64,000 bases of DNA from positions 1 to 64,000 of the forward strand of contig JADCJE010000032.1 of the NCBI GenBank assembly GCA_020247305.1, written 5' to 3'. The stretch is from Phycisphaerales bacterium. GTDB taxonomy: Bacteria; Planctomycetota; UBA1135; UBA2386. The notes beneath the pieces were generated by a model. It made no database searches and was not told where the DNA came from. It saw nothing but the letters and a program-made list of their open reading frames with translations. Made by a program: the position numbers and the translations under genes. This document shows positions 5,528-9,506 of this stretch, in pieces; within the stretch, counting starts at the first letter, position 1, and each line of letters opens with the position of its first letter.

Positions 5528-6754
5528 ATGCCGTGCTTCGCCGCGTTCGCCTTCGCCGTAGCCATCCCCGTGGCGGCGCCGCAGGATCCGCCCGTGCCGA
5601 CCGCCACCGACTACGAGCGCTGGGCGCGCGCGATCGAGCCGGACGAGCAGGAGCGCTCGTACGAGCAGATCGCATGGCGCAACGCCTTCGGTTCGGCCAT
5701 CGCGGAAGCGCGCGCGCTGGGCCGTCCCGTGCTGCTGTGGGCGATGAACGGCCACCCGCTCGGGTGCACCTGAAACAACGGCGTCCGCGGACGCCAGGTG
5801 GTCTGGTCAGACCCCGTGCTGCAGGACCTCGCGCGCCAGTTCGTGCCGGTGGCGGAGGAAGTGCACTTCCTCTACCCCGAAGACGCGGCCAGCCAGCAGC
5901 GCGTTGCCGGCGAACCACTGCATCAACTGTTCAAGCGATTCGGTGACGCGATGCCGCCGGGCGACTGGCGGCGCGAGGGCACCAAGCAAGGCATCTACCT
6001 GATGGGGCCCGACGGCGAGTACCTCGAAGGCCTCGCGACGGCGAGCGGCGATCCGACCGACCTGCGCCGGCGCTTCGAGCGCGCGTTGGCGCGCTGGCAG
6101 ACGCTGCGCAAGGAGCGCAAGTACGCCAACAAGCCGGTGCCGCAGACGGGCGTCGCCATGCCGGCGGGCTTCGAGGACGCGCCGCTGCTGTTGCGCGTCA
6201 GTGTGCGCGACCTCGCCAGCGCCGCGTGCGACACGACGCCACGCTGGCGTCCCGGCGCGTTCGACGATGGCAACTGGGCCGAGTTCACGCGCTGGGCGTG
6301 GAACCAGTCCTGGCACGGAGTCGCTGCGCCGCAGCAGTTGCTGCCCACCGGTGCGGCTGCGGCGACCGCGGACACCGCATGGTTCCGGCGGCTTTGCCGC
6401 GAGGTCTTCGTCGACACCGTGCGCGGCCAGGCGCCGCCGTTCGCCGACGAGCACGTGCGCAAGGCTGAACTGCGCATGCAGCGGCAGCCGGTGCGCAACG
6501 GCAAGCTGACGGTCGAGTACGAGGGCGAAGTCGAACTCGACGACGGCGCGCATCGCCTGCGCCTGCGCCTGCGCGGCCGTGGCGCGTTCGCCGTCGCCGA
6601 CGGCCGCTGCGAGGACTTGCTGCTGGTCGCCCTGGGCGAGCGGCGCGGCGCGCATGCCGCCAACCAGCGTGCGGCCGGTCCGGAGTCGGGGTGGATCGGC
6701 TTCGCGGTGCGCCGGCACGCCCAGGCGGCGCCGCCGAAGGCTGGGCGCAGGTGA
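5528..6754 (+). CDS. Probable selenoprotein: secreted thioredoxin-like protein with in-frame UGA
   Basis: Read with UGA at 5771-5773 as selenocysteine, the frame encodes 408 residues. Residues 1-17 are a signal peptide. A strand PVLLWAMNG is followed by GHPLGCTU (Cys80, Thr81, Sec82) and then NNGVRGRQ and WSDPVLQDLARQFVPV, the strand-redox-motif-helix order of thioredoxin-like folds. The same frame stays open for 327 codons after the UGA, with the same G/C-rich third positions as before it. Two GC-rich hairpins lie 7-40 bases after the UGA. The C-terminal half (residues 180-390) is a beta-rich domain I do not recognise. The stop overlaps the GTG of the aldo/keto reductase by four bases. The alternative is a nonsense mutation in a pseudogene; the position inside a redox motif argues against it. 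Confidence 0.72.
5780..5813 (+). promoter_or_regulatory. Candidate bacterial SECIS region (two hairpins after the UGA)
   Basis: Hairpin 1 pairs GGCGTCC (5780-5786) with GGACGCC (5789-5795). Hairpin 2 pairs GGTCTG (5800-5805) with CAGACC (5808-5813), leaving a GGTC apical loop when one pair opens; its loop begins 31 bases after the UGA. Known bacterial SECIS hairpins lie within the coding sequence with a G-rich apical loop about 16-37 bases downstream, so hairpin 2 is the better candidate. Folding and SelB binding are untested. Confidence 0.5.
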
Positions 6755-7764
6755 CCGCGGGCGGGGCGCGGAGCGTGCCCGGGCTCGGGCGCGCGATCGC
6801 GCCGATCGCCCTTGGTGGCTGGCTGACGCTGGGCGAACGCCTCGACGCGGCTGCGTCGCTGCGCCTGCTGCACCGTGCCATCGACGGCGGCATCGACTTC
6901 CTCGACGTGGCGGATGTCTACGCCGGTGGGGAGGCCGAGCGCATCGTCGGCCGCTTCCTGCGCGAAGTCCGGCGTGATCGCGTCGTCGTCGCCAGCAAGG
7001 TGTTCTGGCCGACGAGCGAGCGACCGGAGGACCGCGGGCTGTCGCGGCGTCACATCCATGCCGCGATCGACCGCACGCTGCAGCGGCTCGGGTGCGGACA
7101 GGTGGACCTGTACTTCTGCCACCGCGAGGACCCGGACGTGCCGCTCGCCGAGACCGTGCAGGCGATGGGCGACCTCGTGCGCGCCGGCAAGGTGGCGGCG
7201 TGGGGCACGAGCTGCTGGCGACCGGCGACCCTGCGAGCGGCACACGCGCTTGCCCGCGAACTGGGCGTCGCGGCGCCTGCGGTCGAGCAGTCGGCCTACA
7301 ACCTGCTGGAGCGCTCGGTCGAAGGCGGCGTGCTGCCGACGTGCGCCACGTTGCGCATGGGGTTCGTCGCCTTCAGCCCACTCGCCGGCGGGGTGCTGAC
7401 CGGCAAGTACCTGGCGGCGGCTCCGGCCGGCTCGCGCGGCGCCGTGTCGTCGTGGCTCGCCGCCTACGACGACGCTCGATGCCGCCGCGTGGTCGCCCGC
7501 TTCGTGGCGGCGTGTGCCGCGCGCGGCATGGCGCCGGCCCCGACGGCGCTTGCTTGGGTGGCTTCCCGACCGGGCGTCACGGCAGCCATCTGTGGCGCCA
7601 CGTCGCCGACGCAATTCGACCAGAATCTGGCGGCCATGCGCCTGCTGGTTGACGGCCACGATCTCGCGTGGGTGGGAGGCCTGGCCCCGGTGTCCCTGGG
7701 GGTTCGGGCGCGTGCCTTGGCATGCGCCCTCCGCCGGGTCTTTCTGCGCACAAGAACGGGTTGA
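6751..7764 (+). CDS. Aldo/keto reductase
   Basis: A 337-residue NAD(P)H-dependent oxidoreductase of the aldo/keto reductase barrel family. With GTG at 6751 as start, the catalytic tetrad is Asp52, Tyr57 (DVADVY), Lys83 (VVVASKVFW) and His124 (YFCHRED). The family C-terminal cofactor segment appears as ICGATSPTQFDQNLAAM, close to the SGA-type signature of the potassium-channel-beta-like subgroup. The GTG overlaps the stop of the selenoprotein candidate (GTGA), implying one message and perhaps a shared redox role. Substrate unknown. Confidence 0.88.
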   Translation: MTAGGARSVPGLGRAIAPIALGGWLTLGERLDAAASLRLLHRAIDGGIDFLDVADVYAGGEAERIVGRFLREVRRDRVVVASKVFWPTSERPEDRGLSRRHIHAAIDRTLQRLGCGQVDLYFCHREDPDVPLAETVQAMGDLVRAGKVAAWGTSCWRPATLRAAHALARELGVAAPAVEQSAYNLLERSVEGGVLPTCATLRMGFVAFSPLAGGVLTGKYLAAAPAGSRGAVSSWLAAYDDARCRRVVARFVAACAARGMAPAPTALAWVASRPGVTAAICGATSPTQFDQNLAAMRLLVDGHDLAWVGGLAPVSLGVRARALACALRRVFLRTRTG

Positions 7765-7788
7765 CGCTGCAGCGAAACAAAGTAGCGT
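7761..7788 (+). promoter_or_regulatory. Sigma-70-like promoter for the PEP-CTERM/exosortase pair
   Basis: TTGACG (7761-7766) and TAGCGT (7783-7788) are separated by 16 bases, the only near-canonical -35/-10 pair I see in the window. It overlaps the stop of the aldo/keto reductase gene and would give a leader of about 38 bases. Confidence 0.45.
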
Positions 7789-7832
7789 TCGCAGCACTCG
7801 GGGCGCCGCAATCGGCGGCGCAACCACCTGCC

Positions 7833-8051
7833 ATGCTGCGGACCACCGTACTCGCTGTCGTTTTCCTGGTTCCCATGTCCGTCGCGCTCGCTGCGGCCCC
7901 TGCACCGCAGGGCTACTCGGCCGTCGGCGCCAAGCCGGCGATGCCCGTCGGCGGTACCCCGGAGCCCACGACCATGCTCCTGATGTGCGGCGGTGCCCTG
8001 GCCTACGTTGCGTGCCGTCGATACGGTCGGCCGCAACGCCGCGAGGACTGA
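7833..8051 (+). CDS. Minimal PEP-CTERM protein, predicted exosortase substrate
   Basis: A 72-residue protein made almost only of sorting signals. Residues 1-22 are a signal peptide. The PEP motif is at 43-45 (GTPEPTT), followed by one hydrophobic helix (MLLMCGGALAYVA) and a basic tail (CRRYGRPQRR), the tripartite PEP-CTERM anchor. Only about 20 residues remain between the two processing points (roughly 23-45: PAPQGYSAVGAKPAMP and onward), so the exported product would be a short proline/alanine/glycine-rich peptide. It lies six bases upstream of the exosortase gene, as dedicated substrates often do. Function unknown; a surface peptide or processed signal is possible. Confidence 0.75.
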   Translation: MLRTTVLAVVFLVPMSVALAAAPAPQGYSAVGAKPAMPVGGTPEPTTMLLMCGGALAYVACRRYGRPQRRED

Positions 8052-8057
8052 CTGCGG

Positions 8058-9506
8058 GTGGCGGCCCTCGCCCTGGCAGCCTGCCTGCTGTGGGTGTTTC
8101 GGGGGACGCTGGCGCGCTACCTCGCGGACCAGCACTACCAGGAGCACTTCCTCTACCTGTGGGTGTTCCTGGCGCTCGCGCTGTGGCGCAGCGTGCGTCG
8201 CCCCTTCCGCACCCATGCGAGCCTGCGCAGCCTGCGCGACCTCGCGGGCCTTGGCCTCGCGGCGATCTCGTGGCTGCTGCTGCTGACCCACGAACTCGGT
8301 GGCAGCAACATCGTTGGGCGAACGGCACTCGTGGTGTTCGTGACTGCCCTCGCCGTGTTGTCCTTGCCGGCCTGGAGCGTCGGTCGCTGCCTCGCGCACG
8401 GCGTGCTGTTGCAGTTGTGCTTCGGGTTGCCCTACTCGGTCTACTTTCCGCTGACCGAGCGCATGCAGTGGGGCGTCGCGCAGTTGGTCGCATTGCCGGC
8501 GAAGCTGGGGTTGGCGAGCTACGACGTCGTCGACGCCGTGGCGGTCTTTCCGCACTACCAGTTGCGCATCACGGCGGATTGTTCGGGCATGGGGCAGGTG
8601 CTGACCTTCGTCGGCATGGCGGCGCTCGGCGTGCTCGGGGCCGCGCCCGATCCGCGCCGCGCCGTGCGCCTCTTCGCTCTGGCCATTGCGTTGGCGTGGC
8701 TGTCCAACCTCGCGCGCGTCGGGTTGTTCGTGCTGCTCGTCGGCTGGGGCGCGACGTGGGCCGTCGACGACGCGGGTTGGCATGCGGCGCTCGGCACTGT
8801 CGTGTTCCTGCCGTTCGCGGCGGCATTGGTCGCTGCGATCTTGCGGTCTTTCCGCCCGTGGTCGCCGGCGGCAGCGGCCACGCCGGCGGCCGGCCGGTTG
8901 CCGATCGCGTTGCTCGCCGTGCCGCTGCTCGCGGTGCACGCAGCGCTCGGCGACCGCAGCAGCGAACCGGCGGCGCGCCCGGGGTATTTCGCCGAGTTGG
9001 AGCATCCGCCTGGGCACGCCTTGGCCCTGCGAGGACCGACCGAGGCGGCCGACCGCGCCGCGTACGAGACGCCGTGGCTGCTTAATGCGCGCTTCGCCGC
9101 CGCCGACGGCGGCACGTTCGACCTGTTCCACTACACGACGCGGTCGCGCAGCCACCTCTGCGTGCACCGCATCGCCGACTGCGTAGATGGACCCGGCTTG
9201 GCGATCCGTTACGCCGAACCGGTCGTGGTCGACGGCCGGCCGTGGTGGCGTCTGGCCGTCGAGGCGGACGCGCCCGATCGTGCGACGCGGCACGTCTACT
9301 TCGCCTTCGAGGTCGACGGCATGCGCTGCGACGACTCGTGGACGACGCAGTGGCACGTGCTGCGCGCGCGGGTGACCGGCGCATCGTGGGACGTGGCGTG
9401 CACTCGGGTCATGTTCGACGGCCCGCTGACCGCGGTCCCGACCGGCCGCGAGGCCGCGGTGCTGGCGTGGTTGGGGCGCCTCGTGTCGGGCCCGTTGGCC
9501 CGCTGA
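8058..9506 (+). CDS. Exosortase (archaeosortase/exosortase family protease-transpeptidase)
   Basis: A 482-residue polytopic membrane protein starting with GTG. About eight transmembrane helices occupy residues 1-275. The exosortase catalytic residues are visible: Cys175 (ITADCSGMG), Arg220 (LSNLARVG) and His242 (AGWHAALG). Established role of the family: recognises PEP-CTERM tails, cleaves them and transfers the protein to a cell-surface acceptor. Residues 280-482 form a soluble, probably periplasmic C-terminal domain that looks like an EpsI-type (DUF3485) fused partner, an arrangement known in planctomycete exosortases. Its immediate upstream neighbour is a PEP-CTERM protein, so the pair probably forms a dedicated system. 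Confidence 0.88.
   Translation: MAALALAACLLWVFRGTLARYLADQHYQEHFLYLWVFLALALWRSVRRPFRTHASLRSLRDLAGLGLAAISWLLLLTHELGGSNIVGRTALVVFVTALAVLSLPAWSVGRCLAHGVLLQLCFGLPYSVYFPLTERMQWGVAQLVALPAKLGLASYDVVDAVAVFPHYQLRITADCSGMGQVLTFVGMAALGVLGAAPDPRRAVRLFALAIALAWLSNLARVGLFVLLVGWGATWAVDDAGWHAALGTVVFLPFAAALVAAILRSFRPWSPAAAATPAAGRLPIALLAVPLLAVHAALGDRSSEPAARPGYFAELEHPPGHALALRGPTEAADRAAYETPWLLNARFAAADGGTFDLFHYTTRSRSHLCVHRIADCVDGPGLAIRYAEPVVVDGRPWWRLAVEADAPDRATRHVYFAFEVDGMRCDDSWTTQWHVLRARVTGASWDVACTRVMFDGPLTAVPTGREAAVLAWLGRLVSGPLAR

Follow-up and report, generated by a model that had tools for sequence, protein, structure and literature searches.

A probable family of secreted, thioredoxin-like selenoproteins in Planctomycetota

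Does the TGA triplet that interrupts a long frame of a Phycisphaerales genome end a gene, or does it encode selenocysteine (Sec)? The frame lies in the window, by which we mean the whole 64,000-nucleotide stretch of DNA that was analysed. Translation of positions 5528–6754 gives 409 codons, among which the sole internal TGA is codon 82, directly preceded by residues ...PVLLWAMNGHPLGCT. The original prediction had placed an in-frame TGA at this point with continuation in the same frame, and translation bears this out. The stretch that follows is long and free of stops, as described, but comprises 326 sense codons rather than 327 before the terminal TGA at 6752–6754. The N-terminus reads as signal-peptide-like, in agreement with the signal peptide claimed earlier, and suggests that the product is exported. 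The features concerned are as follows.

5528–6754, + strand: predicted selenoprotein gene of 408 residues plus stop, with Sec as residue 82; one in-frame TGA, homologues conserved over the full length.
5528–5584, + strand: signal-peptide-like N-terminus (MPCFAAFAFAVAIPVAAPQ), read from the sequence; similar hydrophobic leaders begin the homologues.
5771–5773, + strand: UGA codon, residue 82, predicted to be read as selenocysteine; TGA in 141 of 155 aligned copies.

The GC content of the three codon positions is coding-like both upstream of the TGA (0.70/0.57/0.93) and downstream of it in the same frame (0.76/0.52/0.90). Based on base composition alone, the chance of 326 open codons is about 0.4%, which is weak evidence in DNA of 73% GC; because an open frame is unremarkable at this composition, the case for the gene rests on comparison with homologues. 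That comparison lifts the frame beyond chance, since the UGA is conserved in 141 homologues and the sequence after it is under purifying selection (dN/dS 0.07–0.26 in 12 homologue pairs). Standard gene calling does split 5528–6754, as had been foreseen, and a GTG at 5798 is a possible start for the second part, so that the locus could be taken for a pseudogene or for two separate genes divided by a real stop. We give this reading practically no weight: the same UGA recurs in the homologues, conservation runs the full length across the site, dN/dS after it is well under 1, and a split would sever the confidently modelled thioredoxin domain, separating its first core strand from the helix of the active site.

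When the joined protein served as query against 61 close genomes, 29 of them yielded relatives, nearly all with exactly one internal TGA. A profile built from 27 relatives of that search has matches, some of them weak or partial, in 81 of the 154 genomes examined from the class and in 116 of the 392 sampled across the phylum; some genomes have two to four of them. A genome collection was also scanned for close relatives; two named ones are both from Planctomycetota, and plasmid and phage records gave none. From these matches 155 distinct sites were extracted, 141 with TGA and 14 with a sense codon (Ser in nine, Asp in two, and Thr, Pro and Gly in one each, the Gly copy, L037, being a broken frame). 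The original prediction had looked to homologues with Cys or UGA at position 82 for support; UGA homologues do share the codon and are conserved downstream of it, but Cys is absent, as are TAA and TAG, from the aligned codon of all 155 copies. A quick tree, rooted at the midpoint, gives Sec as the ancestral state and four losses of it, in which the replacements are Ser, Asp or Pro and in no case Cys.

The window's genome also carries a second full-length copy (L115:5559-6872; G000 contig C199), with its UGA in MNGHPLACT-U-NNG and 30% identity to the window protein over 333 aligned positions. Four other copies (L063, L084, L131 and L150) have two in-frame TGAs within the match, of which the second may be either another Sec codon or the end of the frame. 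The copies in which Ser or Thr replaces Sec (L107-L109, L112-L114 and L116-L118) retain part of the surrounding motif and are possibly inactive or repurposed paralogues.

The original prediction had also called for a search of the genome for selA, selB, selC and selD, and all four were found in the assembly that contains the window (4.9 Mb, 92.6% complete): tRNA-Sec (73 bits; called by ARAGORN as tRNA-SeC, anticodon TCA), SelA (2.6e-116), SelB (2.1e-106) and SelD (2.8e-106). Because tRNA-Sec, SelA, SelB and a UGA-bearing SelD are all present, the organism very probably makes selenoproteins. The SelD gene (G000 contig C197:9175-10098; L050, L125) itself contains UGA, in the motif UAAKLPPGSL, and adjoins selA on contig C197; its UAAK fits UxxK, given as the known selenophosphate synthetase motif in a 2026 review (PMC13188914). 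Of the 89 genomes of the phylum sample that bear a UGA copy, SelA was found in 87, against 153 of the 303 that do not (Fisher p 1.7e-19, a value that ignores relatedness and comes from genome lists transcribed by hand). The two UGA-bearing genomes in which SelA was not found are draft metagenome-assembled genomes. Five genomes with copies lacking UGA (G145, G147, G246, G318 and G428) are also without detectable SelA, and other genomes with a Ser copy do have it.

Selenocysteine insertion in bacteria would draw on an RNA hairpin (bSECIS) within the coding sequence 3' of the UGA, and we compared the folding energy of 115 non-redundant genes with that of synonymous versions built from the codons of the respective gene. 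Among 26 offsets, the excess of structure is strongest in windows that start at the UGA (z -0.74, s.e. 0.08), where z is below zero in 79% of the genes; elsewhere it ranges from about -0.36 to +0.49, except at the offset one codon further on. The apical loops are GGUC-rich and cluster 18-19 and 22-23 nt past the UGA. Under a published bacterial SECIS model (loop 16-37 nt after the UGA, G within the first two loop positions), 108 of the 115 copies have a matching loop against 69 (s.d. 4) expected, and 83 have one with GU near the loop start against 29 (s.d. 5). Two hairpins were found in the window's own sequence.

5797–5815, + strand: candidate bSECIS hairpin in the lowest-energy fold, matching the 16-37 nt model with its loop 31 nt after the UGA.
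5780–5795, + strand: second hairpin, GGCGUC-CGCG-GACGCC, in the lowest-energy fold; it lies between the UGA and the candidate SECIS, its loop 12 nt past the UGA.

The candidate bSECIS has a stem of GGUCU/AGACC (5800–5804 with 5809–5813), outer GG/CC pairs (5797–5798 with 5814–5815) and an apical GGUC loop (5805–5808), and the region is more stable than its synonymous versions, of which only 1.4% are as stable. The loop of the candidate lies farther from the UGA than in most homologues (18-23 nt). The second hairpin is common to some close homologues. RNAalifold gave no common structure on an ungapped codon alignment of the homologues, probably because the position of the loop varies between subgroups, and Rfam gave only sub-threshold matches in the UGA region, none of them relevant.

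A UGA read through as a residue other than Sec (for instance Trp, Arg or Gly), whether by leaky termination or a suppressor tRNA, could likewise keep the downstream frame conserved, and nothing found supports it directly. We consider it very improbable for the following reasons: (i) The copies are almost confined to SelA-bearing genomes. (ii) Every one of the 141 stops is UGA, with no UAA and no UAG. (iii) There is a SECIS-like structure 3' of the UGA. (iv) UGA is an ordinary stop elsewhere in the window and at the end of the selenoprotein gene itself.

The part of the protein around residue 82 was modelled by AlphaFold2 with high confidence (pLDDT 87.6 for the whole protein), and the regions used below are these.

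5609–6127, + strand: predicted thioredoxin-fold domain, residues 28-200 (AlphaFold2 pLDDT 93.4; Foldseek PDB matches).
5747–5794, + strand: active-site motif NGHPLGCT-U-NNGVRGR, residues 74-89, by conservation among 141 UGA homologues.
6185–6715, + strand: C-terminal domain with many beta strands, spanning about residues 220-396; confident model.

Foldseek matched residues 28-200 to DsbD-gamma, AGR2, 3f9u, 3ira and a DsbH domain in the PDB with probability 1.00, and in the predicted structure the active site sits at the N-terminus of the helix that follows the first core strand of the thioredoxin fold. The placement of the UGA at a thioredoxin redox-motif position, proposed from the outset, agrees with the AlphaFold2 model, the Foldseek matches and the profile alignments to 3ira and 3f9u. 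In Foldseek the full-length model, its C-terminal domain included, has no PDB fold match at E <= 0.001, and that domain has no match in Pfam. Among the UGA homologues, Gly75 (-7) and Arg89 (+7) are invariant (141/141), followed by Asn84 (+2; 138/141), Gly85 (+3; 136/141), Pro77 (-5; 134/141), His76 (-6; 133/141) and Cys80 (-2; 125/141). In HMMER alignments to 3ira and 3f9u, which are weak (E 0.043 and 0.093), the first Cys of CxxC corresponds to Sec82 and the second to Gly85; in a profile-profile comparison with VPGUxxT, Sec82 falls on the second Cys of that family. Sec82 most likely occupies the position of the nucleophilic Cys of CxxC.

Taken together, UGA conservation, the Sec machinery, SelA co-occurrence, the SECIS-like structure, purifying selection, and the predicted thioredoxin fold and motif make it almost certain, as judged by comparative evidence, that codon 82 is read as Sec. 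The original reading of the locus as a selenoprotein is strongly supported by the sel genes, the UGA homologues conserved past the codon and the thioredoxin-like fold.

On this basis a mechanism can be proposed. SelB with Sec-tRNA-Sec would decode UGA codon 82, aided by the bSECIS stem-loop just 3' in the coding sequence. The Sec82 selenol would lie where the active-site helix begins, replacing the nucleophilic Cys of CxxC; the position of the resolving Cys (+3) would be held by Gly85, and Cys80 (-2), though frequent, would be dispensable. The selenolate would attack an oxidised or electrophilic substrate (a peroxide, a disulfide or similar), and the intermediate would be resolved by Cys80, where there is one, or by a thiol from outside the protein. 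Binding of a substrate or partner may be the task of the C-terminal domain. Because a resolving Cys is not conserved, we moderately favour a periplasmic redox enzyme that works with one selenol.

The Sec residue might instead serve a role other than redox chemistry, binding a metal such as mercury or handling copper with an SCO1-like partner. One family member (L028:1387-2673) has a SCO1/SenC domain (E=1.8e-17) in place of its C-terminal half, and many predicted selenoproteins are tied to metals according to PMC13188914. The SCO1/SenC fusion occurs in one copy only, however, while another member (L064:235-2115) continues in frame into an M28 peptidase domain at its C-terminus, and neither Cys80 nor His76, the residues that might supply a second ligand, is invariant. 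We therefore regard a non-redox Sec as unlikely. The two single fusions point to no clear substrate.

Downstream of the gene, the surroundings offer the following neighbour outside the family.

6751–7764, + strand: aldo/keto reductase (Pfam PF00248, E=2.5e-58), with a likely GTG start at 6751.

The selenoprotein stop overlaps this likely start in GTGA (6751–6754), which makes translational coupling of the two genes plausible here. Co-translation with the reductase had been predicted, and the overlap is consistent with it, but the adjacency is absent from the relatives examined outside the genus. The reductase thus says little about function and was ruled out as a functional partner; the genes neighbouring a few homologues likewise have no shared partner. 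Further along (7668–9503), an exosortase (PF09721, 8058–9503) directly follows a small open frame with a PEP-CTERM-like tail (PEPTTMLLMCGGALAYVACRRYGR), possibly an exosortase and substrate pair.

The review PMC13188914 states that nearly all selenoproteins have Cys homologues. Known bacterial selenoproteins usually do, whereas the family described here has none in the genomes searched, which cover one phylum, together with the one genome-collection scan for close relatives. A tentative picture, to which we give somewhat less than even odds, is that of phylum-wide exported selenoenzymes in which Sec was ancestral and was lost to Ser or another weak nucleophile, never to Cys, the reaction itself needing selenium. 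If the family is indeed Sec-only, it would be invisible to methods of selenoprotein discovery that pair Cys with Sec, and standard annotation would split its genes into two false genes. It suggests that the catalogue of selenoproteins in a major environmental phylum is still incomplete, and it offers a natural test of what keeps Sec in place, given that in the four inferred losses Sec has yielded to Ser, Asp or Pro and not to Cys.

Judged from its sequence and predicted fold, the window protein is a member of a large, undescribed family of putatively secreted thioredoxin-like bacterial proteins. No selenoprotein or thioredoxin model of Pfam or NCBIfam reaches its cut-off on it, and among the entries consulted in the table of prokaryotic selenoprotein families in PMC13188914, none is alike by motif or model; the families of Haft and Tolstoy 2025 were compared through that table and NCBIfam. 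The literature yielded no planctomycete family of this kind, the candidates in the supplement of PMC4807772 lying outside the comparison.

Iodothyronine deiodinases (PF00837) are thioredoxin-fold selenoproteins with a Cys-Thr-Sec stretch like that of the window protein. Pfam scans gave no match to PF00837, and no deiodinase appears among the PDB sequence hits.

The closest resemblance among selenoproteins is to VPGUxxT (NCBIfam NF041382/NF041383, OS_HP5): both carry a single UGA/Sec in the active site of a thioredoxin-like domain, and both occur in the same phylum. A divergent membership of that family would fit the profile-profile match between the thioredoxin domains (probability 91.8, E 7e-7) and weak NCBIfam matches of 14.2-15.9 bits, yet these scores are far under the 350-bit cut-off, Sec is not preceded by VPG, neither Thr nor Cys stands at +2/+3, and genuine VPGUxxT proteins coexist in the phylum; we judge it improbable. 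The VPGUxxT-type motif FQEVPGU(S/A)TC has Cys at +3 and has Cys homologues (L208, L211 and L213), whereas the window family, with NGHPLGCTUNNG, has Gly at +3 and none was found. Seven short planctomycete proteins (L209, L210, L212 and L214-L217), with UGA in FQEVPGU(S/R)TC and about 119-138 bits against the VPGUxxT_one cut-off of 350, probably represent an unmodelled VPGUxxT subtype of which L208, L211 and L213 are the Cys forms.

With Thioredoxin_7, DsbD-gamma, AGR2 and DsbH (DUF255), the window protein shares its predicted fold and active-site position. Its sequence falls below the Pfam cut-off (13.2 vs 27 bits), and where that group has CxxC, the window protein has U-N-N-G plus an extra C-terminal domain.
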